DNA from: Aeoliella mucimassa
GTDB taxonomy: Bacteria; Planctomycetota; Planctomycetia; Pirellulales; Lacipirellulaceae
Direction of reading: 5' to 3'
Assembly (NCBI RefSeq): GCF_007748035.1
Contig: NZ_CP036278.1
Span: 372,001-436,000, forward strand
Length of the DNA stretch: 64,000 nt
The notes under the pieces were generated by a model, which saw only the letters and a program-made list of their open reading frames with translations, had not been told where the DNA came from and did not search any database. Of the stretch, positions 27,174-50,718 are shown piece after piece (within the stretch, counting starts at the first letter, position 1; every line of letters starts with the position of its first letter). A program made the translations under genes and the position numbers.

Positions 27174-30100
27174 ATGCGTCGATTGCTGGTCATTACTGTG
27201 GGGATAAGTTTGTTTGCGGGCAGTTGCGTAGCAAACGAGTATGCCACGCTCGAATTCTTCGAACGCGAAGTCCGCCCGATCTTGGCGAATCGTTGCTACG
27301 AGTGCCACGATGGTGAGAATGCCGAAGGGGCAGCCAACCTGCGCCTCGATTACGGTGGTGGTTGGACCGCCGGCGGCGACAGCGGCCCTGCCATTGATAC
27401 GCACGATGCCGAGAAGAGCCTGCTGCTGCGGGCGGTGTCGTACGACGATCCCGATCTGCAGATGCCGCCGAAGAGCAAGTTGCCGCAGCGCGAGATCGAT
27501 GTGCTGCGCAACTGGATCGCCGCGGGAGCGGTGGCTCCTGAAGAGACCCCCGAGGAATCCAAAGCGAGCCAAGGCATCGACATCGAAGCGCGTCGCCGGG
27601 AGCATTGGGCCTGGCAACCGGTCGAGCGCCCCCAGGTGCCAACGGTCAACGACCAGCAGTGGCCGGCCGATCCGCTCGACCAATTTGTGCTGGCAAAGCT
27701 CGAGCAGGCGAAGCTTGCCCCGGCTGAGCCTTGCGATCCGGCCACTTGGCTGCGTCGAGTAAAGTTCGATCTCACGGGTTTGCCACCCACGGTCGAAGAG
27801 GTTCGCGAGTTTGTCGCGGATCCCTCGCCGGCCGCGCGGGAGAAGGTTGTCGATCGATTACTGGCCAGTCCCGAGTTCGGTGAGTGCTGGGCGCAGCATT
27901 GGCTCGACCTGATGCGATTCGCCGAGACCAAAGGGCACGAGCAAGACTACGACATCCCCCACGCCTGGCGATATCGCGATTACGTGATTCGGGCGATGAA
28001 TGCGAATGTGCCGTACAACCAGTTTGTCGTGGAGCACATTGCCGGCGATCTAGTCGACCCTCCGCGAGTCGATCCCGAGACTCGCACCAATCAATCCATT
28101 CAAGCCACGGGATGGTGGCACCTTGGCGAGGCAACGCACTCGCCGGTCGACATCCGCGGCGAAGAAGCCAATCGTATCGACAACCAGATCGACGTGTTCG
28201 GCAAAGCCTTGCTCGGCATGACCATCGCTTGTGCCCGCTGCCATGATCACAAGTTCGATGCGATCTCCACGGCCGACTATTACGCGCTGTGCGGGTTTGT
28301 TCAGAGCAGCAGTTACCAGGAAGCCAATATCGCTGATCCCGAACGTCAGCAACAACTGGCCCGCGAGTTCGAGTCGCTGCAACAACAGCATGCCGCGCAG
28401 GTGCTGCCAGCTTATGTTGCGTTGGTCGAGCAGCGTTTGACCAAGTTCGTCGGCCAGGCGAAGCAAGGCAATTGGACCGATGCACAGCGGGCGGAACTGC
28501 AACAAGCGATTCACCAACCAAGCCATCCCTGGCACCTGCTGGCGGTTGCGTCTGAAGCCGAAGGCCGTGGCATGACCGTCGAGCAGATGATTCGCCAGGC
28601 GGTGAGCGAGACACCGACCTCCGATGGGCCAACGTTCGACTCCACAACGCCGAACGCAATCGTCGATTTTAGCGCGGTGGCCGAACCGGTTGCCTACGCC
28701 GATTGGTTGACCTCGGGGCAGGCATTTGGTTCCGCTCCTCAACCGGCCGGCGCAGTGCTGATTGCCGACGTCAGCGACACCGAGTCGCCGAGGGTGCTGA
28801 GCCATGCGGCCGCGACCAACCTGGCGACCAGTCCCAAGCTGACCGGGTTGTATCGCACCCGCACGTTCGAAGTCACTGCCGACCGGCTATGGTATCGCGT
28901 GCGTGGTAAGGCCAACGTGTTCATGGAAGTCGATTCGCATCGCACGGTCGCTGGACCGCTGCACGGAGTGGTCCGCAAGTCGATCGACACCCAGGGGGCC
29001 TGGCAGTGGATCGAGCATCCCACGCAAGACTACGTGGGGCATCACGTGCATGTCGACTTCAAGCCAACCGGTGAGTTCTCGCTGGCCGAAGTCCGCCATG
29101 GCAACACTCGTCCCGCAGAGCCTAAAGCAGTGAATCCCGCGCTCGCTCAGGCGGTGCGCGACGCGAACCCTGCGACGTTTAGCGATGTGTTGGAGGTAGT
29201 CACTTCGACTATGTCGCTGGCGCTCGAAGACGCTTGCCATCATCGGGCCGACGAGGCCGTGTTGCCGCTTGCCGAATGGCTGGTGGATCACGACTCGCTT
29301 TTGCCTGAGGTCGCAGGAGAGTCGTTCGCAACGTATCGCACCGTGGTGGACAACTACACGGCCGCACGCACGGAGCTGGAGAAGCAGATTCCCCACCCGC
29401 AGTACGCGATTGCCCTATTGGATGGGAGCAGCGAAGACGAGTACGTGCACCTGCGCGGAAGCCATCAACGTTTGGCCCCCGAAGCCACGCATCGCCGGAT
29501 GCTGACCGCGCTGGGGGGTGAGTTCCCTATTACCGAGGGAAGCGGCCGGCTGCAACTCGCCGAGCGAGTGGCGGCGGCCGATAACCCGCTGTTCACTCGC
29601 ACCATCGTGAATCGCTTGTGGGCGCATTTGATGGGCGAGGGCATCGTCGCGACGGTCGACAACCTGGGAGTGCTGGGCCGACGCCCGACGCATCCCGATC
29701 TGCTCGACTACCTGGCGTGCGAGTTCGTCGACAGCAATTGGGACACCAAGGCCATGATCCGCCGCATGGTGCTCAGCAGCACCTACGCACAGCGTTCGCA
29801 GGGTTCGCCCGCGAACGACCCGCAGGTGGTGGAACTGGCCGACCCGGCCAACGAGTTGGTGCACATGGCCAGAGTGCGTCGGGTGCCTGCCGAAGCAATT
29901 CGCGACAGCCTGTTTGTGATTGCCGGCGAGCTCGACCCGAAAATGTACGGGCCGAGCGTCGAGGTGGAGATCACCGACTTCATGCGGAACAATCGCAGCC
30001 CGAGCGGCAGCGGCCCGATGGATGGCGATCGTCGGCGAAGCATCTACGTGAAGGTTCGCCGGAACGCGCTCAATCACTTCCTGGCCGCTTTCGACAAGCC

Positions 30101-30416
30101 GATGCCGTTTACGACGGTCGGCCATCGCAACTGCAGTAACTCGGCCGCTCAGCCGCTGATGCTGCTGAACGATCCGCTGGTGCATCACCTGGTCGACAAG
30201 TGGGCCGAGAAGCTCACCGCGCAGTTCGCCGACGACTCGGCCGCGATCGAACACGCCTACCTTTCGGCCTTCGCCCGCCCGGCTTCGGCCGAGGAGACCG
30301 CGCAGATCACCGCGTTTCTCGCCGAGCAAGCCAGCGCCAATGTGCCGCGCGCCGACGCTTGGCAAGATGTTTGCTTGGCATTGGTGAACAGCAAAGAGTT
30401 CATTTTCCTCAAGTAG
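27174..30416 (+). CDS. Planctomycete cytochrome c / DUF1549 / DUF1553 protein
   Basis: 1080 residues, exported (signal MRRLLVITVGISLFAGSCVA). Near the N-terminus is a PSCyt1 c-type heme site (RPILANRCYECHDGENAEG; CxxCH). DUF1549 (PSCyt2) follows, with LDQFVLAKLEQAKLAPAEP, a FDLTGLPPTVEEV motif and a second possible heme pair in CARCHDHKFD. The last third is DUF1553 (PSD1), with NRLWAHLMGEGIV and NTVDNLGVLG-type segments. This architecture is almost confined to Planctomycetes and neighbouring phyla. It is thought to take part in extracytoplasmic redox chemistry, perhaps on polysaccharides; the reaction is unproven. The DUF1501 gene follows at 100 bases. Confidence 0.93.
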   Translation: MRRLLVITVGISLFAGSCVANEYATLEFFEREVRPILANRCYECHDGENAEGAANLRLDYGGGWTAGGDSGPAIDTHDAEKSLLLRAVSYDDPDLQMPPKSKLPQREIDVLRNWIAAGAVAPEETPEESKASQGIDIEARRREHWAWQPVERPQVPTVNDQQWPADPLDQFVLAKLEQAKLAPAEPCDPATWLRRVKFDLTGLPPTVEEVREFVADPSPAAREKVVDRLLASPEFGECWAQHWLDLMRFAETKGHEQDYDIPHAWRYRDYVIRAMNANVPYNQFVVEHIAGDLVDPPRVDPETRTNQSIQATGWWHLGEATHSPVDIRGEEANRIDNQIDVFGKALLGMTIACARCHDHKFDAISTADYYALCGFVQSSSYQEANIADPERQQQLAREFESLQQQHAAQVLPAYVALVEQRLTKFVGQAKQGNWTDAQRAELQQAIHQPSHPWHLLAVASEAEGRGMTVEQMIRQAVSETPTSDGPTFDSTTPNAIVDFSAVAEPVAYADWLTSGQAFGSAPQPAGAVLIADVSDTESPRVLSHAAATNLATSPKLTGLYRTRTFEVTADRLWYRVRGKANVFMEVDSHRTVAGPLHGVVRKSIDTQGAWQWIEHPTQDYVGHHVHVDFKPTGEFSLAEVRHGNTRPAEPKAVNPALAQAVRDANPATFSDVLEVVTSTMSLALEDACHHRADEAVLPLAEWLVDHDSLLPEVAGESFATYRTVVDNYTAARTELEKQIPHPQYAIALLDGSSEDEYVHLRGSHQRLAPEATHRRMLTALGGEFPITEGSGRLQLAERVAAADNPLFTRTIVNRLWAHLMGEGIVATVDNLGVLGRRPTHPDLLDYLACEFVDSNWDTKAMIRRMVLSSTYAQRSQGSPANDPQVVELADPANELVHMARVRRVPAEAIRDSLFVIAGELDPKMYGPSVEVEITDFMRNNRSPSGSGPMDGDRRRSIYVKVRRNALNHFLAAFDKPMPFTTVGHRNCSNSAAQPLMLLNDPLVHHLVDKWAEKLTAQFADDSAAIEHAYLSAFARPASAEETAQITAFLAEQASANVPRADAWQDVCLALVNSKEFIFLK

Positions 30417-30516
30417 CTTTCGATTCTTTCAGTAACAGCACAGTGCTGAGCAACGTCTGCTGCTCTCGCTTGCGATAGTCCTATCCCACCTTTCGCCTTA
30501 GCCCCTCCCGAGTGCC

Positions 30517-31914
30517 ATGCATTGCCAACGCTTTGTGAATCCTCCACTGACGCGCCGCGAGATGCTTCGGCAATGTGCGTGTGGCTTCGGCGGTCTGGCG
30601 CTCGCCAGCCTGGCAGGGGGTGCGCCGCCGGCCCCACCCGGCTACCGTCCGCGGGCGAAGAGCGTGATCTTTCTCTACATGGATGGCGGCGTATCCCAGG
30701 TCGATAGCTTCGATCCCAAGCCAGCCCTCGAGCGGTGGAATGGCAAGCCGTTCAATGCGAAGATCGAGCCGACGCAGTTCGACAACGTGGGGACTACGCT
30801 CGCGTCGCCTTGGAAGTTCTCGCAGCACGGCGAGTCGGGCCAGTGGTGCAGCACCATGTTCCCGAACATCGCCCGCAACATCGATAAGCTCGCCATCGTG
30901 CGGAGCATGGTCAGCGAGTTCTCCGAGCACAACACGGCCAACTACTTCCTGCACACCGGCTTCGGGCAGGCGGGGCGGCCGAGCATGGGGGCCTGGCTCA
31001 GTTACGGGCTTGGCAGCGAAACGCAAAACCTGCCGACGTTTGTCGTGATCAACGGCGGGCTTGTCCCGAGCGGCGGGGCCGATAACTTTGCCGCTGGATT
31101 CCTGCCGGCGCTGCATCAGGCCACCATGTTCAAGCCGCAGAAGCTCCCGGTCGCGAACCTCAACGCACCCGCTTCGATGAACGACGAGCGGATGCACGGG
31201 GTCCGCAGCTTGCTGGCGAGTCTCGACTCCGGTGTCGCCGAGAGCTATGCCCACAACGATGCGATCGAGAGCGCGATTGCCAACTACGAGCTGGCCTATC
31301 GCATGCAAATGGCCGTACCCGAGGTGGCTTCGGTCGACGACGAACCGGAGTTCATCCGCGAGCAATACGGGCTGAACCACGATTTCGCTCCCACCCGCAT
31401 CTTCGCCCGCGAATGCCTGCTCGCCCGCCGGATGGTGGAGCAGGGGGTGCGGTTCATCGAGCTGACCTGCCCGGCCATCTCGGGCTGCGATCGCTGGGAC
31501 GCCCATGGCGGGTTGATCAAGAACCACTCCGAAAACGCCCTGGCGACCGACCAGCCAATCGCCGCGCTACTGGACGATCTCGACGCCCGCGGGCTGCTCG
31601 ACGAAACCCTGGTGGTGTGGGCCGGTGAGTTCGGGCGCACGCCGTTTGCTCAGGGCTCGGACGGGCGCGATCACAATCCGTTTGGCTTCACCATCTGGAT
31701 GGCCGGCGGCGGCGTCCGCGGCGGCACCACTTATGGCCAGACCGACGAGTTCGGCTACCGCGTGGTCGAAAACCGAGTGACCATCCACGACCTGCACGCG
31801 ACCATGCTACACCTGCTGGGCATCGACCACACGAAGCTCACCTACCGCTTCGGCGGCCGCGACATGCGACTCACCGATGTCCACGGCGAACTCGTCCACG
31901 GCATCCTGGCTTAG
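30517..31914 (+). CDS. DUF1501 (sulfatase-like) protein, Tat-exported
   Basis: 465 residues. The N-terminus has a twin-arginine-like signal (LTRREMLRQCACGFGGLALASLAGG), so export as a folded protein is likely. The body is DUF1501: VIFLYMDGGVSQVDSFDPKP (alkaline-phosphatase-like metal site), VRSMVSEFSEHNTANYFLHTG, later VVWAGEFGRTPFAQGSDGRDHNP and HDLHATMLHLLGIDH. The fold belongs to the sulfatase/alkaline phosphatase superfamily. The family nearly always follows a DUF1553 gene, as here, so the pair probably works together outside the cytoplasm. The specific substrate is unknown. Confidence 0.92.
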   Translation: MHCQRFVNPPLTRREMLRQCACGFGGLALASLAGGAPPAPPGYRPRAKSVIFLYMDGGVSQVDSFDPKPALERWNGKPFNAKIEPTQFDNVGTTLASPWKFSQHGESGQWCSTMFPNIARNIDKLAIVRSMVSEFSEHNTANYFLHTGFGQAGRPSMGAWLSYGLGSETQNLPTFVVINGGLVPSGGADNFAAGFLPALHQATMFKPQKLPVANLNAPASMNDERMHGVRSLLASLDSGVAESYAHNDAIESAIANYELAYRMQMAVPEVASVDDEPEFIREQYGLNHDFAPTRIFARECLLARRMVEQGVRFIELTCPAISGCDRWDAHGGLIKNHSENALATDQPIAALLDDLDARGLLDETLVVWAGEFGRTPFAQGSDGRDHNPFGFTIWMAGGGVRGGTTYGQTDEFGYRVVENRVTIHDLHATMLHLLGIDHTKLTYRFGGRDMRLTDVHGELVHGILA

Positions 31915-39368: not shown

Positions 39369-39570
39369 CGTTCTCGCGGATAGCGTACGAAATCGATACG
39401 CGATGTCGTGCACAACCCGACTCCCGCAAACTCCAGTTTTGGGTGCGCAGACTCGTACTATTCATCTACGGGTTGCCGGTGTTCTTTGAGCTAGGCTTGA
39501 TGTTAGGCAAGTGCCAATCGCGATGTCGAACGCTTGCTGCTCCTCTCTCATCCCCCTGGTTCCTCACCCA

Positions 39571-40272
39571 ATGCTCGATAAGTCTGCTTACCCTTTACAA
39601 GCGTGGGGCAATGGCCACGAGCCATTGCCAAAGCGATTCTATCTGCCTGCCAAACCCGACCACATCGATAGTCGCTGGTGTTGTTGGGTGAACCTGGAAG
39701 AGGTGCTGCCATTGCATTTAGCCGCCGAAGCGCATTGGCAAGGAATGGACGAATCGCGAGCGTGTACTAGCGACTACCTCGAGCGGGCGTCGGAAGAAAT
39801 CGGGGGACTCTGCGGAGGTTGGCTCGACCACGAAGAGTCGCATCTGTTGCGGCAGTACCTGGGGGAGCCACCGCTGCCATGCTTGCCGATTTACTTCATC
39901 GCCCTCGAACGCGATGGCACCTACAGCGAGCCCTTGTACATTGGCATCACGAGTTCCAGTTGCCGGTTTGCTAACGGGCACAAAGCGGCTCTCTGGTTGC
40001 ACGACGACAAGTACGCGGGCTATCGCAAGGTGCTGTTTCGCGCGGCCGTGTGGTTCCACGATGGCACCCAATACCTGCCGCTGGAGTGGATGCTCCCCCA
40101 CGCGCTGGCGGCTGAAATGCTGGAGAGCATCGAGTCGCAGTTGATCTACGACTACCAACCGGTGATGAACGAGCGAAAGCGAGCCAACGACTGCGCGACG
40201 AAACCAATCGACATCCATCTACAAAGCTACGCCGGCAGCGACTTCATCGCCACGCGGTTCTTGGTGCCCTGA
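39571..40272 (+). CDS. GIY-YIG-like domain protein
   Basis: 233 residues from ATG 39571 (ATG 39523 and GTG 39511 are in-frame alternatives; none has a clear ribosome-binding site). The C-terminal half has the GIY-YIG order: IYFIALERDG (GIY strand), EPLYIGITSSSCRF (YIG strand with the following Arg), GHKAALWLHDDKY, then a helix AAEMLESIESQLIYDYQPVMNER that supplies the family's Glu and Asn positions. GIY-YIG domains cut DNA in repair, restriction or mobile elements. The N-terminal ~110 residues are not recognised. It stands next to gene remnants in an accessory-looking region. Confidence 0.7.
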   Translation: MLDKSAYPLQAWGNGHEPLPKRFYLPAKPDHIDSRWCCWVNLEEVLPLHLAAEAHWQGMDESRACTSDYLERASEEIGGLCGGWLDHEESHLLRQYLGEPPLPCLPIYFIALERDGTYSEPLYIGITSSSCRFANGHKAALWLHDDKYAGYRKVLFRAAVWFHDGTQYLPLEWMLPHALAAEMLESIESQLIYDYQPVMNERKRANDCATKPIDIHLQSYAGSDFIATRFLVP

Positions 40273-42027: not shown

Positions 42028-42429
42028 TTAGCAGGTGCTGGTGCTGGTGCTGGGGAGCTGCAAGCCTTCGAGAATGGCGGTGGCCAACGCCTCGGCCGAG
42101 GTCGGCTTGGTGAAGTAGCGGAACACTCCGCCATGGTTAATGGCGGTTTGCATCGCTGGAATGCTCGGCTGCCCAGTGAGCACGATGCGAATCACGTTGG
42201 GGTAATGCTCGGCGATCCAGGTGACGAGCTCCGAACCTCGCATGCCGACCATGCACTCGTCGGTCACCACGAGCTGCACCGCGTGGGCCTTGAGCACCGC
42301 AACAGCCTCCTCGGCCGACCGCGCGGTGAGCGTGACGAACGGCTGCTTCCGCCACTCGCGAGCGAGCGAGTGCAGCAGGTTCGGTTCGTCGTCCACTAAC
42401 AGGACCGTTGGCTTCGCAGGAGTATTCAT
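42028..42429 (-). CDS. Single-domain response regulator
   Basis: 133 residues from ATG 42429 (the frame extends to TTG 42441). A receiver domain: VLLVDDEPNLL (acidic pocket D13, D14), VVTDECM with phospho-acceptor D57, RIVLTGQ (Thr switch) and FRYFTKPTS (Lys). No output domain follows; the C-terminus is a Ser/Thr run encoded by a repeated GGTGCT hexamer. It is the last gene of the H-NOX signalling array, 63 bases after the degenerate HD-GYP gene, and may act as a phosphate sink or connector. Confidence 0.9.
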   Translation of the reverse strand: MNTPAKPTVLLVDDEPNLLHSLAREWRKQPFVTLTARSAEEAVAVLKAHAVQLVVTDECMVGMRGSELVTWIAEHYPNVIRIVLTGQPSIPAMQTAINHGGVFRYFTKPTSAEALATAILEGLQLPSTSTSTC

Positions 42430-42492
42430 CGAGTTCGGCAAGTCGATCCAAACAGAAGGAAAAACGAATGTAAACAGTAGGGGGATTCGGTA

Positions 42493-43653
42493 CTAACCAA
42501 CCGGTTGAGCCAGTTGCTCTTCGGTCGGCGCTTCGGCGGCTTGCTCGCTGCTGTAGCACCGCACCCGAATCGGCTGCTGCACGCCATGCGTGGAGCGTTC
42601 GAAGTTGCGTAGTCGGTTCATGAGCGACTCGGTGACTTCCTGGCCTTTGGCAATCAGCACCGAACCGGTGAGCGTCTGCACGTTCTCGTCGAACACCATG
42701 CCTTCGCGCAGGCCGATGATGTGAACTTCCTTCGTAATGTACGACGAGGTCACCAGCTCGCTGAGCGCCTTGAGCACGTCGGGATCGTATTGCTCGGGAT
42801 GCTCCCGCAGCATGGTGTGCAGCGCCTCGGGGGGCGAGGTGACTGTCGCCAGCACGTCGTGGTCGAGTACCACCTTGAGCACTCGCGCGCCCATCGGAAT
42901 GGAGTTGTTTGGTTCATGATACCGCTGCAAAGCAATGAGCTCGGCCGCCCCTTCCAAGCGAGGGATCTTGCCCACCAGTTCGCGCCCGGTGTCGGGGTGC
43001 TCGTCCCACATGCGTTGTTCAGTAGGATTCAGCCGAATGCCATCGGTAACTTTTTCGAGGATTTCGTTAGGAATCGCAATGCAGCCGATTTGCGAGAGCA
43101 TGGCTGCGATTTCGACTTCCCAGGCGTTTTTTAACTTTAGCCGATTGGCAATATCGCGAGCGTACCGCCGCACCCGCGACGCCTGGCCGAACGCTTTCGG
43201 ATTGGTGAGCGACATCATCTGGACCATCAGGTTCACGCTGCCGCTGAGTGTTTTGGTGAGCAGTTCCTGCTCCGCCCGCACGAGCCGAAACTGCCGGACC
43301 GCTGCTTCGAGCGTGGCGGCCATGGTTTCGGGCGAGCAAGGTTTGGTAAGGAAGCGAAAGATGTTGCCTTGGTTTACCGCATCGATGGCGGTTCGCTGGT
43401 CGGCGTCGCCGGTGAGCATCACCCGCACGGTGTCGGGGTGGCGCTTCGCCACGGCGGCCAGCACCGCGATGCCATTGACCTCGGGCATTTTCATGTCCGA
43501 CACGACAACTGCAAACGGAATTTCGGAGGCAATCATCGACAGCGCCTGGGGACCCCCCTCGGCAAGAAACACATTGTAGTCCTTGCGCAGGTGCCGTTTG
43601 TAACCAGACAGCACGTTGGGCTCATCGTCGACTAGAAGAATTCGCTCTTTCAT
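42493..43653 (-). CDS. Response regulator with degenerate HD-GYP domain
   Basis: 386 residues. The receiver is intact (D9-D10, phospho-acceptor D53 in VVSDMKMP, KPC Lys). The second domain aligns with HD-GYP cyclic-di-GMP phosphodiesterases, but key residues are gone. The first His region reads FGQASRVRRYA, LHDIGK is replaced by LSQIGC, and HHExxDGxGYP is replaced by QRYHEPNNS. Only the EHPDTGRELVG His remains clear. It is therefore probably catalytically dead and acts by protein contact. The C-terminal ~100 residues form an extra domain seen in planctomycete homologues. ATG 43653 overlaps the preceding stop (ATGA). Confidence 0.9.
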   Translation of the reverse strand: MKERILLVDDEPNVLSGYKRHLRKDYNVFLAEGGPQALSMIASEIPFAVVVSDMKMPEVNGIAVLAAVAKRHPDTVRVMLTGDADQRTAIDAVNQGNIFRFLTKPCSPETMAATLEAAVRQFRLVRAEQELLTKTLSGSVNLMVQMMSLTNPKAFGQASRVRRYARDIANRLKLKNAWEVEIAAMLSQIGCIAIPNEILEKVTDGIRLNPTEQRMWDEHPDTGRELVGKIPRLEGAAELIALQRYHEPNNSIPMGARVLKVVLDHDVLATVTSPPEALHTMLREHPEQYDPDVLKALSELVTSSYITKEVHIIGLREGMVFDENVQTLTGSVLIAKGQEVTESLMNRLRNFERSTHGVQQPIRVRCYSSEQAAEAPTEEQLAQPVG

Positions 43654-44867
43654 GGAACTGCCTGATGTTTTGGTACAGAAGTGTTAGTTGCCCGATGCCA
43701 TTGTTCAACTCGATCGGCGAACGGGCCATTGGCCAGGAACTCGGACCGCTCGAGCAGCGTCGCTTCCTGCGCCCGACTCGACACGCGTTTGCGACACAAG
43801 ATATTAGCAGCATGCACGGCAACCAGGGGACTGAAGCCCGTCGATTCGGCTTCTTCGGGAGTGCGGTACAAACAAATCGCTTCCATCACCGGCAGCGGTG
43901 CACCCCACAGTCCCAGCAGATAGCTCCCCACCTCGGCATGACTCGATCCGAACACATGCATCTCGGCTTCCCAAAGCGTGATTTGCTGATCATGAGCGAG
44001 ATCAACCGCCTGGCGGAACTCGTCGGCCGCGCAAGTGGCCAGCACCAGTTTGCCCACGTCGTGCAGCAAGCCAGCGAGTCGCGAATCGCCATGCACTTGA
44101 GGATCGTCGCTTTCGAGCTTCGCGATGTTGTAAGCGCACTCCGCAACGTCGCGACTATGGTTAGTCAGTTCGTTCAGCGAAAAATGAGCAAACTGCTCTT
44201 CCTCGAACACGCGAAACACCCCTTCGATTCGCAGCAGTTCACGCAGCAAGTCGAGGCCCAACAACGAAACTGCTTGCTCGGCCGACTTGACTCGTTGCGG
44301 CTGGCCAAAGAACGAGGAACTTACCAGTTGCAGAAACTTCGAAGTCATGCCGACATCGCCGGCTACGATTTTGGCGACATTGTCGATGGTGGCCGACGAG
44401 GAGTTCAGTTCGCTGGTGAGTTGTTCCAGCGAGTGAGCCGACGAGGGTACGGTGTCCAACTGCGAAACCAATTGCTTCAACCGATCGTTCTTCAAACGAT
44501 CGCGAAGCATGCAGCAACGAGCGACCGTAGAGGTCAGCTTCTCCGCGTCGCATGGTTTCGACAGGTATTGATGAGCAGGACCGAGCGCGCAGAGAATCCG
44601 CTCGCGGTCGGACTGTCCCGACAGCACGATCCGTATGGTCGAAGGCCACTTCTCACGGACATTCCCCAGCAGCGCGGCGCCGTCGATGCCTGGCATCCGC
44701 ATGTCGGTAATCACCACATCGAACCGCTTGTCCTGCATCAACTCGAGCGCTTCATGCCCTCCGCAAGCAAACTCCATGTCCCACTGCTTGTGATAACTGC
44801 GCAGCATACGACGAATGCCCGAAAGCACATTCGCTTGATCGTCTACAAACAACAAACTTGTCATCAT
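43650..44867 (-). CDS. Response regulator with HDOD output domain
   Basis: 405 residues. The receiver (residues 1-120) has FVDDQ, phospho-acceptor D55 (VVITDMRMP), LSGQ and YLSKPCD. The HDOD domain (~140-340) includes VAKIVAGDVGMTSKFLQLVSSSFFG, EQAVSLLGLDLLRELLRIEGVF and LAGLLHDVGKLVLATC. HDOD domains usually lack enzymatic activity and pass signals by binding partners, although the HD pair is retained here. It lies between two HD-GYP-type regulators in the same operon: 12 bases after one and overlapping the next by four bases. Confidence 0.92.
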   Translation of the reverse strand: MMTSLLFVDDQANVLSGIRRMLRSYHKQWDMEFACGGHEALELMQDKRFDVVITDMRMPGIDGAALLGNVREKWPSTIRIVLSGQSDRERILCALGPAHQYLSKPCDAEKLTSTVARCCMLRDRLKNDRLKQLVSQLDTVPSSAHSLEQLTSELNSSSATIDNVAKIVAGDVGMTSKFLQLVSSSFFGQPQRVKSAEQAVSLLGLDLLRELLRIEGVFRVFEEEQFAHFSLNELTNHSRDVAECAYNIAKLESDDPQVHGDSRLAGLLHDVGKLVLATCAADEFRQAVDLAHDQQITLWEAEMHVFGSSHAEVGSYLLGLWGAPLPVMEAICLYRTPEEAESTGFSPLVAVHAANILCRKRVSSRAQEATLLERSEFLANGPFADRVEQWHRATNTSVPKHQAVP

Positions 44868-44879
44868 ACAGTTCCTAGC

Positions 44880-46028
44880 TCAGGGCGTCGTTTCTTGGAG
44901 TATCTCTGTGGGGGTGATGGAACGCTTGTCGGCATCGGAGTAAGCTACTTCGGCTTCAAGAATCTCTTCCAGTACTTGCAGGAACGCCAGGTAAACCTCC
45001 GGGTCGAAGTGGGTGCCATTTTTTTCTGCAATGATGTCGAGCGCTTGCTCTACATCGTATCGTTTCTTGTACGGGCGTTTGCTTCGCAAGGCGTCGTAAA
45101 CGTCGGCAATCGCAACAATGCGGGCGGGCAGGGGAATGGCTTCGCCGGCCAGGCCATAGGGATACCCGGTGCCATCCCATTTCTCATGGTGGTAGGTTGC
45201 AATGTTTGCGGCCATTTCCAGCAAAGGGTAACGCTCGGTCAAAGTGTCGAGCGACAGGTCGCCTGGCACCAGCGTACGCCCAGCGTGACCTTCCACAAGA
45301 ATGGAGCGTCCGATCAAGCAGTGCTCCTGCATGATCTTCCATTCCTGCGGACTCAGCTTGCCCGGTTTGCGCAGGATGGCATCTGGGACGCCAATCTTGC
45401 CAATGTCGTGCAGCGTGGCAGCCAAACAAAGGTTCTCACAGAATTCGGCCTTCATGCCCATTGCTTGCCCGATCAGTTTGGCATAGACCCCCACGCGGAC
45501 AACGTGGTTGCCAGTGTCGTCGTCGCGACACTCCGCGGCTTTGGCCAGCCGCCAGACCAGTTCGGCATGCGAATCGAACAGCTGTTTCGTGCGGGCGCGC
45601 ACCAGCAGATCGAGTCGCTCGTTTTGTTGTTTCAGTTGATCGGTGCACTTTTTGAGTTGCAAAGCGCTCCGCAGTCGGGCAGCCAGTTCGCTGCAGTCGA
45701 CAGGTTTATGCAACAAGTCGGTCGCACCAAGCGACAGTGCGCGACTCTTCAGTCCATTGTCGTCCCGCCCGGTGACGATGATCACCGGGATATCGATCAT
45801 ATCGGGATGTTCTTGCATCCGCTCCAGCAGTTGCAGTCCCGACATGCCAGGCATGTTGATATCGGAGACGACCACATCTGCCGACGACTCGAGCAGGCCA
45901 TCCCAGGCCGACATCGCGTCTTGATGAAACGACATCGTCCATTCTTCTCGGAACGGATGCAAAATCCGCGCATACGCCCGCAGGACGTAGTGTTCGTCGT
46001 CGATGAAAAGTATTCGGTTCAAACTCAT
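44880..46028 (-). CDS. Response regulator with intact HD-GYP (c-di-GMP phosphodiesterase) domain
   Basis: 382 residues from ATG 46028 (TTG 46034 is in frame). The receiver has FIDDEHYVL, phospho-acceptor D56 (VVSDINMP), IIVTGRDD and LLHKPVD. A helical linker (~125-160) precedes the HD-GYP domain with all hallmarks: HVVRVGVYAKLIG, TLHDIGKIGVPDAIL, MQEHCLIGRSIL and HHEKWDGTGYPYGLAGEAIPLPARIV. Intact HD-GYP enzymes hydrolyse cyclic-di-GMP to GMP. It lies 6 bases after the kinase gene and is the obvious catalytic output of the array. Confidence 0.95.
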   Translation of the reverse strand: MSLNRILFIDDEHYVLRAYARILHPFREEWTMSFHQDAMSAWDGLLESSADVVVSDINMPGMSGLQLLERMQEHPDMIDIPVIIVTGRDDNGLKSRALSLGATDLLHKPVDCSELAARLRSALQLKKCTDQLKQQNERLDLLVRARTKQLFDSHAELVWRLAKAAECRDDDTGNHVVRVGVYAKLIGQAMGMKAEFCENLCLAATLHDIGKIGVPDAILRKPGKLSPQEWKIMQEHCLIGRSILVEGHAGRTLVPGDLSLDTLTERYPLLEMAANIATYHHEKWDGTGYPYGLAGEAIPLPARIVAIADVYDALRSKRPYKKRYDVEQALDIIAEKNGTHFDPEVYLAFLQVLEEILEAEVAYSDADKRSITPTEILQETTP

Positions 46029-46034
46029 GTTCAA

Positions 46035-47372
46035 TCACTCAATCGGCAAGCGGACGATGAAAGTCGTGCCAGCGTTTTGTTCGGTTTCAAAGCTGATGGT
46101 ACCGCCATGCTTCTCGACAATTACCGAATAGGTAATCGCAAGACCTTGACCAGTTCCTTTGCCCACCGCTTTAGTGGTGAAAAAGGGGTCGAAGATCTTA
46201 CTCTGAGCGTCGAGAGGTATCCCAGAGCCAGTGTCCGAAATACGGATTTCAGCCCAGTTGTCGACTTGTTTCGTGCTGATGGTAATCGTGCCGAGCGGCT
46301 GCGTTTCGTCGTCGCGAGTCGACTCAATCGCATGGGCGGCATTCACGATCATGTTCAACAACGCTTGGTTCAAGTCCCCCGCATAGCAAGGCACCAAAGG
46401 CAGGTCGTTGGCGAATTGCATCTCGACTTCCGAGACGTATTTCCACTCGTTGCGCGAAACGGTCACCGTGCTTTGAATCGCATGATTCAGATCGATGGCG
46501 GCCTTTTCGCGGATGCCTGGATGCGAGAACTCTTTCATCGCGCGAACGATCGTCGCCACGCGTTCGGCACCATCGAGAGAATGTTGGATGGCCAGGGGGA
46601 TTTCTTCCCGCAGGTATTCCAGATCGGACTCTTCCATGAGCGCCTTCGTGCGTTTCACAAGCGAAGAGCAGAGATTGTTGTCTTCGCATGCCTGAATCAG
46701 TTGATCGACACTCTCGAAGTAGTCTTCGAGATCGTGAAATGCATTGTTGAGGAACCGAGTATTGTCTCCCACGTACTGAATGGGAGTGTTGATTTCGTGG
46801 GCGATGCCAGCGGCCAATTGACCTACCGATTCCATCCGTTGGGCGTGAGCCAGTTGAGCTTCGAGCTGCTTGCGTCGGGTAAGGTCGCGAACCAAGCTCA
46901 TGTAGGCATGGCGGTTGTTGATGGTGACCTCGCTAATGATCAGTTCCATCGGAAACTCAGTGCCATCACTCCGCCGGCCGAGTATCTCGCGGTCCGCTTC
47001 TCGTTTGCTCGAAATCAACCACTGAGGAGTGCAGATTGTTGCGTCGGGCGAAGTCTCCCGGCACGGGTTTGCAAACAGCGAGTCGGCTCGTTTGCCTACC
47101 ATTTCGTCGGCTGCCATAGCGAACATGCGTTCCGCGGCCGGATTTACCGAATCGATGTAGCCTGCGTTGCTGATCGTGATGATGCCTTCAGCGGCGTTGG
47201 CCACAATCGCGTGGGTACGCTCTCCCTGTTCTCGAAGGCATTCGGTCAACGCCTTCAGTTCGGAGTTGGCATCGTACACCGCGCGCGACTTTTCCTCCAG
47301 CAGCAATTCCGCCTGCGAGCGGGCGCTCTGTTCGCGAGTCAGGCGTCGTTCAATGACTTCTATGTGTTGCAC
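46035..47372 (-). CDS. PAS-domain sensor histidine kinase, partner of H-NOX
   Basis: 445 residues, cytoplasmic with no membrane segment. An N-terminal coiled coil (~1-50) and a PAS domain (~55-165: AIVANAAEGIITISNAGYIDSVN...) precede the HisKA domain. The phospho-acceptor is H192 in LAAGIAHEINTPIQY. The HATPase domain follows, with N box LLNMIVNAAHAIES, G1 ISDTGSGIPLD, FDPFFTTK and a GTGQGLAITYSVI loop. The GTG start at 47372 overlaps the H-NOX gene by 13 bases, the arrangement of H-NOX-associated kinases, whose activity is controlled by the heme protein. Confidence 0.93.
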   Translation of the reverse strand: MQHIEVIERRLTREQSARSQAELLLEEKSRAVYDANSELKALTECLREQGERTHAIVANAAEGIITISNAGYIDSVNPAAERMFAMAADEMVGKRADSLFANPCRETSPDATICTPQWLISSKREADREILGRRSDGTEFPMELIISEVTINNRHAYMSLVRDLTRRKQLEAQLAHAQRMESVGQLAAGIAHEINTPIQYVGDNTRFLNNAFHDLEDYFESVDQLIQACEDNNLCSSLVKRTKALMEESDLEYLREEIPLAIQHSLDGAERVATIVRAMKEFSHPGIREKAAIDLNHAIQSTVTVSRNEWKYVSEVEMQFANDLPLVPCYAGDLNQALLNMIVNAAHAIESTRDDETQPLGTITISTKQVDNWAEIRISDTGSGIPLDAQSKIFDPFFTTKAVGKGTGQGLAITYSVIVEKHGGTISFETEQNAGTTFIVRLPIE

Positions 47373-47929
47373 GGCACCGCCCCTTCTTGGTGAACCGTAA
47401 GCCGGAACCGAGCGTAGGTGTCGTCGCCAGATTCAGAATCCTCACGGATCAAATCAATGGACTCCCCAAAGTGGTCGATGCAGCCTTTTATTAACCCTTC
47501 CGCAAAATCAGCAAAAGGACGGCTGGAATGGTAAGTCAACTCGAGTGTATCGTCAGCGGGGCGGGACGTTTTGAAACGCGGTACTTCTGCGTCAGGATAG
47601 AGTTTTGCGACTTCGGCATGATGGTGTTGATCGACCATGGAAAGCATCGCGAATACCGAACGGGCCTTGGCAAATTGCTTGGCGCTGATTTTCAGCATTT
47701 CGGCAAAGGCATACCTACCGAACTCATACAGAAGCTTGGCAGAGGAAGTCTTGGTGCGACGACTCAGTTCGTCGACCAAAGCCAGCAGTTCGTGGTGATC
47801 GTAGATGCCTACATTGGTGTAGGCGCCTCCACTTTCCAGAGGAACGCTATCAATAAGTGTCTCGGTGGTGACCATACCGTACTGGTCATCAACCCAACCG
47901 AGAAATTGATTGAAGATGGCGCCTTTCAC
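47360..47929 (-). CDS. H-NOX heme nitric oxide/oxygen-binding protein
   Basis: 189 residues from GTG 47929, with AAGGGG six bases upstream. This gives the canonical opening (V/M)KGAIFNQFLGWV, so the longer frame to 48016 is rejected. Hallmarks: the proximal heme ligand H104 in DQHHHAEVAKLYPDAEVPRF, and the heme-propionate YxSxR motif Y133-S135-R137 (LTYHSSR). The length is that of stand-alone bacterial H-NOX proteins, which bind NO (and in some cases O2) and regulate a kinase or cyclase. It overlaps the histidine kinase gene downstream, which is the expected partner. Confidence 0.93.
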   Translation of the reverse strand: MKGAIFNQFLGWVDDQYGMVTTETLIDSVPLESGGAYTNVGIYDHHELLALVDELSRRTKTSSAKLLYEFGRYAFAEMLKISAKQFAKARSVFAMLSMVDQHHHAEVAKLYPDAEVPRFKTSRPADDTLELTYHSSRPFADFAEGLIKGCIDHFGESIDLIREDSESGDDTYARFRLTVHQEGAVPCNT

Positions 47930-48124
47930 AACTACCCCTTTGCGAAGGAACTTATGAACCTGCCTTGGCAAAGCAAAGACATTCTCATGGCAACTATAGA
48001 ATGCAAGTTCCGGCAATGCGGTCGGAGACGCGTAGGGTGCACAAAAAAACGATCAAATGGAATGTGTCGAATGCTGCAACTGCGACGAATGTCGAGACGT
48101 CGTGTTGTTGGTGGCTGCTATGCG

Positions 48125-48565
48125 CTAGGCGTTACGTGCGAGACTCTGCGGCACCAAAGAAGCAATGACCTGCACCAACTCTTCGGAGTCGACCGGTTTC
48201 GTAAAGTACGCATCGACCCCCAAGCCGAGCATCTTCTTTTTCCAGTGCGATTCCTCAAGGCCCGTCAAGACGATGATCGGCGAACTGCTGGTGGTTTGAT
48301 TGTTGCGCAGGCAACGAACCACCTCTTCTCCATTCACCAAGGGCATACAGATGTCGGTAATGATGATATCGGGCCGCTCGGTAATGGTACGCCAGATACC
48401 ATGGACTCCGTGATACCCTTCGATTACTTCGATGTTGTAACGCTTCAGGCAGCGTTTCATGCCATCAATCACTTTCGAATCGTCATCCACCACCAGCACC
48501 CGTACGGGCGGTGCCGAATGAAACGGATCCGCTCGATCAAAATCGAGTTCGCAGTCAATCGCCAT
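48125..48565 (-). CDS. Single-domain response regulator
   Basis: 146 residues. A ~20-residue polar extension precedes the receiver: VLVVDDDSKVI (D27, D28), phospho-acceptor D71 in IIITDICMP, IIVLTGLEES and YFTKPVDSEEL. There is no output domain. It is the promoter-proximal gene on the minus strand, 195 bases before H-NOX, and may share phosphate with the kinases of the array. ATG 48565. Confidence 0.92.
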   Translation of the reverse strand: MAIDCELDFDRADPFHSAPPVRVLVVDDDSKVIDGMKRCLKRYNIEVIEGYHGVHGIWRTITERPDIIITDICMPLVNGEEVVRCLRNNQTTSSSPIIVLTGLEESHWKKKMLGLGVDAYFTKPVDSEELVQVIASLVPQSLARNA

Positions 48566-48976
48566 AACTATTTGCCCCGTGTGAGAAGTTGGAGAAGTTC
48601 CAAGGCGACTGACACCTGTTGGCTCTCACGGAGTCCAGGTGGCAAGTCAGCCTACAGCGGTATCCCCTTTACAAACGTAGCTCAAACTCGTTCGGCAGCT
48701 TTGCAGGAAATTCAGCGCCAGCATCGGGAATTCGCTTGGCGTAACGATTCTTACGAACCTCGCGATTGCGATGGTCCAGGCAGGTTCTGGTTGCCTGCGA
48801 ATCAATGCACTGAAGCGAGGTGGAAGCACACACCCGCAAGCCACGGCAGAACTAGCAATTCGATTGCAACGAGAGGCAACTGGAGAAGTCGGTCCACTTC
48901 TTGGAAAAGAGACACACAACACAACTAACAACCTATATTTGCACAGTCTAGGGGTTCTCACTTTGGAGGCATTCAG
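48566..48976. other. Divergent control region of the signalling array
   Basis: 411 bases between the two arms of the array. It contains an inverted CACCTG...CAGGTG pair near 48612-48642 and becomes A/T-rich towards the plus-strand CheY-like gene. No gene is supported: small open frames on both strands lack ribosome-binding sites. It should hold promoters for both arms. Confidence 0.45.
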
Positions 48977-49354
48977 GTGAATAGAGTTTTAGTAGTCGAC
49001 GACAGCGCCTTCATGGCTCGATCCGTCGCGATCGTGCTAAAGGATATGGATTTCGAAGTCGTGGCACTTGCTCACGATGGCTTCCAGGGCGTTGAGAAAT
49101 ACGAAGAGCTGCGTCCCGACGTGGTATTGCTTGACGTCACGATGCCCAACATGGATGGCGTGGAATGCCTGGTAAAGCTTCGCGAGATCGACAACGACGC
49201 CCGCGTCGTTATGCTCTCTGCGGTTCACGATGAAGAGACTGTAAATAAGTGCTTGGAGTATGGCGCTATCGCGTTTTTGCAGAAGCCCATTCGTAGGGGC
49301 AATGCCGAAGACCTGGAGCGTTTGCGTTCGACCCTCGAAACTGCCGCCCACTAG
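48977..49354 (+). CDS. CheY-like response regulator
   Basis: 125 residues, a bare receiver: VLVVDDSAFMARSV (D8, D9), phospho-acceptor D53 in VVLLDVTMPNMDG, VVMLSAV and FLQKPIR. GTG 48977 has TTGGAGG 7 bases upstream. It lies 11 bases before the CheX-domain kinase, so phosphotransfer between them, and removal by the CheX-like domain, is a reasonable inference. Confidence 0.92.
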   Translation: MNRVLVVDDSAFMARSVAIVLKDMDFEVVALAHDGFQGVEKYEELRPDVVLLDVTMPNMDGVECLVKLREIDNDARVVMLSAVHDEETVNKCLEYGAIAFLQKPIRRGNAEDLERLRSTLETAAH

Positions 49355-49365
49355 TAGCCGAGCCC

Positions 49366-50718
49366 ATGAGTAATATCGCAGCTTACACTTCGGCGTTTCA
49401 GTCCATCACCGAACGTGTCTTAAACGACATGTTTGGGCTGGGGGAGTCCGTTCCCTCACCGGTGATTGAAGTGCCATCGGTAGAAACGTCAAAGAACTTC
49501 ATTGTGTCGTTATTCTATACCGGCTCAGTGTATGGTGAATATCTACTTGCGATGGACGAAGAAGTTGCCGCGCGAGTGGTAGGCATCGATCAAGTATCGG
49601 ATGGTGAAGATCGTGACATTGCTCAAGAAACCATCTGCGACGCCCTGACCGAAACGCTTAATCTGATCGTTGGCGAAGCGGTAGTCGAACTGCAAGACTG
49701 CTACGCTAAGCTCACCATTACCGCTCCGCGGGTGTACTTCGGGAAAATTCGCTATCCCCAGTTCCGCACCGGTAAGGCAGTGCTGCAAACTTCGGCCGGC
49801 GAGATCGAATGCTTCTTCTGTCTTGATCAAATGCGGTTGAGTCTCGCAGCGTCGTACGACGAAGCGATGGACTCGCTCATGGTCATCAATAAAGAATTGA
49901 AGGAAGCTAATCGCCATCTGGCTGAGCAACAAGCTCAGTTGGTGCATGCCGAGAAAATGGCCACCGTGGGTATGCTGGCCTCCGGCGTGGCTCACGAAAT
50001 CAACAACCCGTTGTTCTTCCTCGATATGAACCTGGAGACATTGAACGAGAATGTCTCGACCATCGAAGGACTGATTCAACGCTACGAAAGAATCGAAGCC
50101 CGTGTCGCCGCCGTCGAGCAACAGCTTGAAGACGAAGGCTTCGAGCGGGTGCTCACGGAAACCAAGGAAGTGGTAACCGAAGCCCGCGAAGGGGTAGAGC
50201 GAATCAAGAATATCGTCCGTAGCCTCAAAGAGTTCTCGGACGTGGATCGCAGTGGGTTTGCGGACTCCGACATCAACATGATTGCCAAGAATGTGTGCAA
50301 TCTGATCTCGCACCTGTTGCCGAAGGGTTGCCAGGTAGAGCAAGAGTTTGAGGAAGTACCGCGACTGAACTGCAACGCTGGTGAAATGAGTCAGGCGCTA
50401 GCCAACATCCTCACCAACGCGGCTCAAGCAGTCGGCGAAGATGGCCATATCGTCGTCGGTAGCCATGTAGAAGAAGACTGCGTGGTGCTTTCGTTTACCG
50501 ACAACGGGGTGGGCATCGATGCTGATAATCTCGATCGGCTGTTCGATCCCTTCTTCACGACCAAAGAAGAAGGCCAAGGTTCCGGGCTTGGGCTGTCGAT
50601 CTCGTACGGAATCATCAAGAAGCACAAGGGTGTGATCAGCGTCGAAAGCACGTTGGGCGAGGGAACCACCTTCAAGGTGCGGCTTCCCTTCACCACACCC
50701 GAAGCCAGTTACTGCTAA
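49366..50718 (+). CDS. Histidine kinase with N-terminal CheX-like domain
   Basis: 450 residues, cytoplasmic. Residues ~1-165 resemble the CheC/CheX/FliY phosphatase fold: an early AFQSITERVLNDMF helix and the ALTETLNLIVGEAV helix, which carries the E-x2-N pair (E96, N99) and Gly (G103) that form the CheX active site. A short coiled coil leads to HisKA with H210 in LASGVAHEINNPL. The HATPase domain follows (ILTNAAQAV, FTDNGVGID, FDPFFTTKEEGQGSGLGLSI). Having kinase and putative receiver-phosphatase in one chain is unusual. The end overlaps rsmE by four bases on the other strand. Confidence 0.88.
   Translation: MSNIAAYTSAFQSITERVLNDMFGLGESVPSPVIEVPSVETSKNFIVSLFYTGSVYGEYLLAMDEEVAARVVGIDQVSDGEDRDIAQETICDALTETLNLIVGEAVVELQDCYAKLTITAPRVYFGKIRYPQFRTGKAVLQTSAGEIECFFCLDQMRLSLAASYDEAMDSLMVINKELKEANRHLAEQQAQLVHAEKMATVGMLASGVAHEINNPLFFLDMNLETLNENVSTIEGLIQRYERIEARVAAVEQQLEDEGFERVLTETKEVVTEAREGVERIKNIVRSLKEFSDVDRSGFADSDINMIAKNVCNLISHLLPKGCQVEQEFEEVPRLNCNAGEMSQALANILTNAAQAVGEDGHIVVGSHVEEDCVVLSFTDNGVGIDADNLDRLFDPFFTTKEEGQGSGLGLSISYGIIKKHKGVISVESTLGEGTTFKVRLPFTTPEASYC

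Follow-up and report, generated by a model that had tools for sequence, protein, structure and literature searches.

In the Hno network, as outlined in the passages of PMC6335343 and PMC8846402 available to us, HnoK and HnoS feed HnoC, the EAL protein HnoB and HnoD, a degenerate HD-GYP protein that inhibits HnoB; neither HDOD nor CheX is mentioned in those passages. In Vibrio cholerae, the available part of PMC4441509 places VC1086 (EAL) and VC1087 (degenerate HD-GYP) in a predicted eight-gene operon, VC1080 to VC1087, in which VC1081 and VC1082 are response regulators. A further comparison is the NosP-NosK-NosR system of Burkholderia, described in sections of PMC12570481 as an auxiliary heme nitric oxide (NO) sensor, a kinase and a degenerate HD-GYP regulator, with a direction of response that varies among NosP systems. 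Here, we analyzed a 64,000-nucleotide stretch of Aeoliella mucimassa (NZ_CP036278.1, positions 372,001 to 436,000; the window), in which an H-NOX gene lies within an array of nine signaling genes. We propose, with a probability of about 0.65, that this array is a planctomycete counterpart of the Shewanella and Vibrio Hno network, linking NO to cyclic di-GMP (c-di-GMP) by the mechanism set out below. Loci and genomes used for comparison are designated by L and G numbers.

Layout of the array

A first-pass annotation of the window had described a nine-gene array at positions 42028 to 50718. All nine genes were present, and their domains were confirmed by Pfam as follows.

42028..42441, minus strand: g1, bare receiver (Response_reg, 68 bits)
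42493..43653, minus strand: g2, receiver and degenerate HD-GYP (predicted pseudo-enzyme) with a C-terminal extension, HnoD-like (HD_5, 100 bits)
43650..44867, minus strand: g3, receiver and HDOD (HDOD, 146 bits)
44880..46034, minus strand: g4, receiver and intact HD-GYP, predicted c-di-GMP phosphodiesterase (HD_5, all motifs)
46035..47372, minus strand: g5, H-NOX-partner histidine kinase with an HnoK-type N-terminal motif, PAS, and the dimerization/phosphotransfer and catalytic (DHp/CA) domains (Pfam and motif search)
47360..47929, minus strand: g6, H-NOX (HNOB PF07700, 117.7 bits, cut-off 25.5)
48125..48565, minus strand: g7, bare receiver upstream of H-NOX (Response_reg)
48566..48976, no strand: divergent control region between g7 and g8, 411 bases
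48977..49354, plus strand: g8, CheY-like receiver (Response_reg)
49366..50718, plus strand: g9, histidine kinase carrying an N-terminal CheX domain with ExxN (CheX 33.9 bits, cut-off 27; HisKA/HATPase)

The minus-strand run has the order g7-g6-g5-g4-g3-g2-g1, and g8-g9 are oppositely directed. From g6 to g1, adjacent genes overlap or are at most 51 bases apart; the reported overlap of the H-NOX gene with the PAS kinase gene measures 13 bases, and g3 and g2 overlap by 4. Between g7 and the GTG of g6 there are 195 bases. The g1 product has 137 amino acids (aa) from a TTG, with an ATG four codons downstream of it. Response_reg matched all six receiver-bearing proteins, and the acidic pair, acceptor Asp and Lys were seen by eye in all six. 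The H-boxes read HEINT in g5 and HEINN in g9. No FNR/NNR-type palindrome with up to two mismatches was found within the g7/g8 control region; over the whole window, loose matches to this palindrome numbered 93, against 58 expected.

Comparison with described systems

As in the Hno loci of Shewanella oneidensis and Vibrio, H-NOX stands beside a soluble kinase, accompanied by several receivers and a second kinase. We take VC1086 and VC1087 of V. cholerae to be the homologues of HnoB and HnoD. A tblastn search of g2 over plasmids gave matches in 22 records, 7 of them from Vibrio, and two Vibrio coralliilyticus records were examined. In the first, NZ_CP009266.1 (L157), a locus of about 13 kilobases (kb) encodes receiver-HDOD, CheY, CheX, PAS kinase, receiver-GGDEF-EAL, receiver-degenerate HD and Hpt proteins, with H-NOX and a kinase nearly 5 kb on; the second, NZ_CP120721.1 (L169), carries the same locus by annotation. 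The homology of g2 to HnoD was judged through the degenerate receiver-HD protein of this locus, which g2 matched at 26.6% over residues 2 to 364 (E = 1e-39). The g5 protein shares its N-terminal motif with the H-NOX kinase of V. coralliilyticus, which it matched at 35%, against 40% for the second kinase there. The corresponding values were 31% for H-NOX, 23% for g3 and the receiver-HDOD protein, 35% for g8 and 39% for the kinase part of g9; the CheX part of g9 matched weakly (phmmer E = 5e-6). The plasmid locus differs from the window in its GGDEF-EAL output, its separate CheX gene, its Hpt gene and the distance of its H-NOX and kinase genes.

Because the V. coralliilyticus locus holds HDOD, CheY and CheX, these parts are common to the loci of both phyla, and their sharing could reflect descent or repeated assembly. 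The HDOD arm had been presented as an addition to the known kind of system, which is therefore not supported. The kinase-phosphatase fusion, also presented as new, does distinguish the array from Hno loci, as do its two extra bare receivers, but CheX itself is present in the Vibrio locus.

The array also differs in composition from the NosP system, which has a FIST-domain NosP and one regulator where the window has H-NOX and several. The NosR model matched g2 with 237.8 bits (below its cut-off of 400), and since g4 (188.6), g3 (139.3) and g1 (114.5) also matched, it is not specific for g2. A NosP system was rejected, as no FIST domain was found among the nine array proteins, to which that search was confined.

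Within Planctomycetes, cassettes without H-NOX (L138, L140, L141 and L143) hold a kinase, receiver-HD-GYP, receiver-HDOD and receiver-degenerate HD in the window's order, and L135 does likewise without HD-GYP; these cassettes differ from the window by PAS, receiver or other sensor kinases in place of H-NOX. The earlier statement that no equivalent had been described in Planctomycetes held for the literature searched, but equivalents are present in many genomes. The literature search returned no report joining H-NOX with Planctomycetes, H-NOX with HDOD, or CheX, CheC, HDOD and histidine kinase. Papers joining any two of Planctomycetes, HD-GYP and HDOD, judged by titles and abstract openings, included none on such a cassette, and the sole paper combining HDOD with NO, c-di-GMP and a histidine kinase was, by its title, on another subject.

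H-NOX sensor

The g6 product was identified as H-NOX by its HNOB match over the curated cut-off, its proximal His and its YxSxR heme motif. With the GTG at 47929 as M1, the heme residues assigned earlier (H104, Y133, S135 and R137) are correct, and the same columns of an alignment of 55 H-NOX sequences hold His in 53, Tyr in 53, Ser in 55 and Arg in 48. The open reading frame (ORF) reaches further upstream, with its first TTG at 48016; the GTG start gives the canonical numbering. Solved H-NOX chains also aligned to g6, the best being 6ocv_A (E = 3.6e-37). The GC content is lowest of the array in this gene (47360-47929), at 51.8% (56.8% at third positions) versus 59.1% for the window.

The distal tyrosine Y140 of the Thermoanaerobacter (Tt) protein is the mark of oxygen-binding H-NOX. 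At its place, g6 has F142, and the 55 sequences have Phe in 27 and Leu in 20. Two cysteines are encoded from the GTG start of g6 and three in the longer ORF. According to the portion of PMC12329717 consulted, the zinc-cysteine redox site of Vibrio and Caulobacter H-NOX consists of three Cys and a His or Gln near the C terminus, and Caulobacter H-NOX responds to cysteine oxidation and not to NO, its NO-bound form failing to inhibit HnoK. With two cysteines from the GTG start, g6 lacks this site, so that redox input by the zinc-cysteine route, which the first-pass annotation had allowed for, found no support. The residues of g6 favor NO over oxygen or zinc-redox sensing.

Partner kinase

A 40-residue motif at the N terminus of g5, R..RE..AR..AE.LLE.KS..LY, was derived from g5 together with the Vibrio kinase and then iterated over the ORFs of the loci compared. 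It was present in 20 of 38 kinases encoded directly downstream of H-NOX and in Vibrio HnoK. Of 43 other kinases, 26 of which came from cassette loci L135-L154, two had the motif, and these two lie within H-NOX loci (L077 and L086). Among the kinases compared here, the motif is confined to H-NOX loci. Many of the 18 motif-less kinases after H-NOX were of HNOBA type by eye, which Pfam confirmed for L060, the sole one tested, and the L080 kinase carries, by eye, a weaker version of the motif. The motif is a feature identified here and not, to our knowledge, a published criterion for Hno kinases.

The PAS and kinase core of g5 matched kinases of cassettes without H-NOX at 42 to 46% over about 390 to 440 aa, including those of L140 (46% over 423 aa) and L136 (45.5% over 400 aa), and the kinase core matched that of L135 at 55% over 275 aa. 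The kinase after H-NOX in L193 matched at 56% over 434 aa. Because its motif occurs in H-NOX loci and its core resembles kinases of H-NOX-free cassettes, g5 looks like a cassette kinase bearing a putative H-NOX docking helix.

HD-GYP, HDOD and pseudo-enzyme outputs

The distinction drawn earlier between an intact and a degenerate receiver-HD-GYP protein was upheld: g4 keeps every HD-GYP residue set (H, HD, H, HHE, GYP and D), whereas g2 has lost HD (changed to SQ), HHE and GYP. The HDOD domain of g3 keeps its H..HD..H set, and g3 matches its L219 counterpart at 54% over 396 aa.

When the part of g2 behind the receiver was searched against the phylum, 35 places were found in 32 of 392 genomes at E = 1e-20, and all 35 neighborhoods were examined over about 8 kb on the upstream and 5 kb on the downstream side, or less where contigs end. 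As loose HD-GYP and degenerate-HD profiles cross-match HDOD, counts were taken from gene strings instead. In 27 of the 35 loci (all except L073, L148, L151, L154, L160, L161, L165 and L166), the nearest domain pair on the upstream side of the degenerate-HD gene was receiver-HDOD. An intact-type HD-GYP gene lay just ahead in six: the window, L138, L139 (with a PAS kinase between), L140, L141 and L143. The HD pair was lost in 24 of the 26 degenerate-HD proteins compared, and the other two (L072 and L074) retain HD but lost HHE; HD, HHE and GYP were kept in all 11 receiver-HD-GYP proteins (as GFP in L141). The degeneracy is thus widespread and kept, and g2 is a conserved, predicted pseudo-enzyme. 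Receiver-HDOD and pseudo-HD-GYP form a general planctomycete output pair, mostly with sensors other than H-NOX.

Among cassette HDOD domains, counted with near-duplicate rows, the HD pair was present in 24 of 27 and the full H..HD..H set, which is absent from the Vibrio HDOD, in 21 of 27. The degeneracy is in this respect inverted, HDOD retaining a metal set while the neighboring HD-GYP relative has lost its own. Mantel correlations between HDOD, degenerate-HD and kinase distances in 20 loci gave r values between 0.36 and 0.46; of 5000 shuffles, 49, 49 and 7 did as well. These correlations could also stem from shared genome ancestry. In the window genome, eight GGDEF matches exceeded the cut-off and EAL was matched once, weakly and in part, so an HD-GYP hydrolase would be expected (HD-GYP genes were not part of this count). 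A second receiver-HD-GYP gene in that genome matches g4 at 44%.

H-NOX arrays in relatives

H-NOX was found in 42 of 392 genomes of the phylum sample, at 53 places, of which 45 were examined (43 fetched, the window, and one additional place within L069). HD-type outputs lay near H-NOX in seven of them: the window, L060, L072, L073, L074, L080 and L051, the last with a divergent receiver-HDOD gene. In the order, 92 of 396 genomes had a match (91 over the cut-off), at 105 places. We examined 42 of these, namely 40 fetched by match strength, mostly short frames, together with the window and L051, and the frequencies are biased to that extent. The family of G171 had H-NOX in 2 of 23 genomes. That the array is a lone case, as 1 of 43 genomes in its own family could imply, was rejected on the 92 genomes of the order.

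Receiver-HDOD and receiver-degenerate HD genes stood in the H-NOX run in 12 of the 40 fetched order loci (L193, L194, L196, L197, L200, L201, L202, L204, L206, L212, L219 and L220); in the other 28, which lack this pair, H-NOX mostly accompanies a hybrid kinase or the frames are long and fused. L193 has H-NOX, PAS kinase, receiver-HD-GYP, receiver-HDOD and receiver-degenerate HD in the window's order, with counterparts of g7 and g1 absent, and L219 has the same five-gene order with an extra receiver-kinase gene. Receiver-HD-GYP is at the far end in L194 and L204. The strict HHExxDGxGYP string was kept in L194, L204, L209 and L219, and neither HD.G nor HHE..GYP occurred in any of the 13 degenerate-HD proteins of the order set. 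In L196 and L197, a one-strand run encodes a kinase, receiver-HDOD, receiver-degenerate HD, receiver, CheY, CheX-kinase, BLUF, H-NOX and PAS kinase. The recurrence of the array is more than chance, with much of the gene order repeated in other genera, and the first-pass proposal passed this test of neighborhood conservation.

The bare receivers also had matches: g7 to the receiver preceding H-NOX in L216 (40% over 116 aa), and g1 to receivers after the degenerate-HD gene in L194 (49% over 121 aa) and L060 (41%). Each of the nine genes likely has a counterpart in some order H-NOX locus, with bare-receiver similarity counting as weak evidence.

A BLUF photoreceptor gene stood directly before H-NOX in 9 of the 40 order loci (L194:9520-10002, L196:8256-8804, L197, L200, L201, L202, L204, L206 and L212), as found by Pfam in the four tested and by profile in all nine. 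This arrangement suggests a joint light and NO input; the window genome gave no BLUF match. Another H-NOX type in the order is represented by L221-L229, frames of about 505 to 544 aa that contain an H-NOX domain and have no degenerate-HD gene in their vicinity.

CheY and CheX-kinase pair

ExxN is the catalytic motif of CheX/CheC phosphatases. The N terminus of g9 is a CheX domain with this motif (E96 and N99) and a predicted phosphatase; the motif is kept in the homologue of G005, a genome of the same genus, and in the Vibrio CheX gene. A CheX profile of three rows found the PDB CheX structure 3hm4 at 4e-6. In L196 and L197, the receiver beside the CheX-kinase matches g8 at 60% and the kinase itself g9 at 51%. 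Across 392 genomes of the phylum, a search for the g9 N terminus gave two with it, the window genome and G078 (29%). On plasmids it gave no match at E = 0.01, in a search insensitive enough to miss the Vibrio plasmid CheX gene too.

Evolution of the array

In the tree of degenerate-HD proteins, the window and the order H-NOX arrays fell in a 16-row group (support 87/96), 14 rows of which have H-NOX and two of which (L135 and L139) do not; L060, L073 and L080 fell elsewhere. A single origin of the link between H-NOX and the degenerate-HD protein was rejected by the approximately unbiased (AU) test (p = 1.8e-12 with 4 H-NOX rows and p = 4.6e-5 with 17 rows). Both trees omit the near-duplicates L147, L152 and L162 and the Vibrio row, and the tested group was named from the data. 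Given these features and the long branches of L080, L168 and L153, we are unsure of the number of H-NOX recruitments. In a near pair of loci, L073 and L145, the receivers are 74%, the kinase cores 64% and the degenerate-HD proteins 79% identical; L073 has H-NOX and a motif-bearing kinase, and L145 has a kinase with another N terminus and an HDOD gene.

G005 has counterparts of g4, g8 and g9 at 57%, 58% and 61%, and in the tree g4 pairs with its G005 homologue (support 90/99). About 5 kb from receiver-HD-GYP, CheY and CheX-kinase in G005 (L105/L106, G005:C80) lies a pair of genes that match window positions 27174-31914, so that this place may be syntenic with the window. The idea that a foreign H-NOX module was inserted around native g4, g8 and g9 was dropped, as g4-like and g8/g9-like genes occur inside other H-NOX arrays. 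The H-NOX module is at least as likely to have been lost in G005 as inserted in the window, gain and loss being indistinguishable here.

Proposed mechanism and alternative explanations

The domains, motifs, homologies and recurrent neighborhoods described above support the first-pass proposal that H-NOX, kinase and c-di-GMP form an Hno-type network, in which a phosphodiesterase predicted to be active is partnered by a degenerate HD-GYP protein. In the scheme that we favor, NO binding, partner contacts, phosphotransfer, the brake and the direction of the c-di-GMP change are predicted steps. H-NOX (g6) would bind NO at its heme and restrain g5, as most studied H-NOX proteins do, probably by way of the N-terminal helix of g5. 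Without NO, g5 would phosphorylate the receivers; phosphorylated g4 would hydrolyze c-di-GMP, and phosphorylation of the pseudo-enzyme g2 would lift a brake that g2 exerts on g4. NO would silence g5, whose HExxT phosphatase motif may help to reset the receivers; by analogy with the Hno literature, c-di-GMP would then rise and cells would favor attachment. The HDOD protein g3 and the bare receivers g1 and g7 may be further phosphate-receiving arms or sinks of g5. As a second input kinase, g9 would phosphorylate g8 and, with its own CheX domain, dephosphorylate it again, so that the CheY signal would be short-lived; g9 would be the counterpart of the second kinase and CheX of Vibrio.

Several observations weigh against this reading. 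The phosphodiesterase of the array is an HD-GYP protein and not an EAL protein such as HnoB; no EAL domain was found among the nine proteins, nor, by Pfam, a helix-turn-helix response regulator such as HnoC. In 29 of the 35 degenerate-HD loci, no intact-type HD-GYP gene lay just ahead, and H-NOX was seen in 4, the other 31 having none in the stretch examined (some on short contigs). Because most such loci show no H-NOX or adjacent intact HD-GYP gene, the pseudo-enzyme may have a partner other than g4. In L193, the HD-GYP protein retains LHDLGK and not the strict HHExxDGxGYP string. Within its own family, the window genome itself is the 1 in 43 with H-NOX, and G005 keeps receiver-HD-GYP, CheY and CheX-kinase genes without adjacent HDOD or degenerate-HD genes and without H-NOX anywhere in its genome. 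The direction of the c-di-GMP change is not safe, because NO-bound Caulobacter H-NOX spares HnoK (PMC12329717, in the portion consulted) and the direction varies among NosP systems (PMC12570481, likewise).

Some of these observations would fit a main output other than c-di-GMP hydrolysis, with HDOD and the pseudo-enzyme serving as adaptors that are controlled by phosphorylation and act on other targets, and with g4 as an accessory. The conserved pairing of the two (27 of 35 loci, with an intact-type HD-GYP gene just ahead in 6) points that way, as does the HDOD regulator DVU0330, which has the HD pair and is described in the available part of PMC4114195 as lacking c-di-GMP activity. Related H-NOX arrays nevertheless include an intact receiver-HD-GYP protein (L194, L204 and L219, and L193 with its partly changed motif), and the homologous Vibrio set includes an EAL protein; we consider the adaptor explanation rather unlikely. 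Less probable still is that two unrelated systems lie side by side, an H-NOX operon comprising g7 to g1 and a chemotaxis-like pair, CheY and CheX-kinase, that has an input of its own. The divergent transcription of g8-g9 would agree with this, as would the persistence of CheY, CheX-kinase and receiver-HD-GYP in G005 without H-NOX; a CheX profile, a narrow one made from the window and G005, found CheX solely in those two among the phylum loci examined. However, CheY, CheX-kinase and the H-NOX array share one same-strand run in L196 and L197, and in the Vibrio locus the HDOD/EAL/HD run encloses CheY, CheX and a second kinase. That g6 senses oxygen or oxidants and not NO has a precedent in the cysteine oxidation response of Caulobacter H-NOX (PMC12329717, in the same portion), but with two cysteines from the GTG start, no three-Cys zinc site and Phe at the Tt Y140 position, we regard it as very improbable.

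Beyond the Hno-type reading of this locus, we tentatively put forward a wider one, to which we give somewhat less than an even chance. Planctomycetes may own a general plug-in output cassette of a kinase, receiver-HDOD and receiver-pseudo-HD-GYP, at times with an active receiver-HD-GYP, a bare receiver and a CheY/CheX-kinase pair. Sensors would have been fitted to it repeatedly: PAS, receiver and other kinase N termini, H-NOX and, in one family, H-NOX with BLUF, which would let NO and blue light be read together. The Hno networks of Vibrio and Shewanella would then be one far branch and not the type, and HDOD and CheX would be core parts of Hno loci.

Loci of this predicted NO-to-c-di-GMP kind are widespread in Planctomycetota, where they have the HD-GYP form, and a dead enzyme, the pseudo-HD-GYP protein, is kept beside HDOD across many families. 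The same output cassette with different sensors, including near pairs such as L073/L145, offers a natural comparative set for sensor swapping on kinases, and HDOD and CheX deserve attention in the known Hno networks too. Outside the array, the ORF at window positions 39511-40272 has a GIY-YIG-like look by eye, with YIGIT near its middle.

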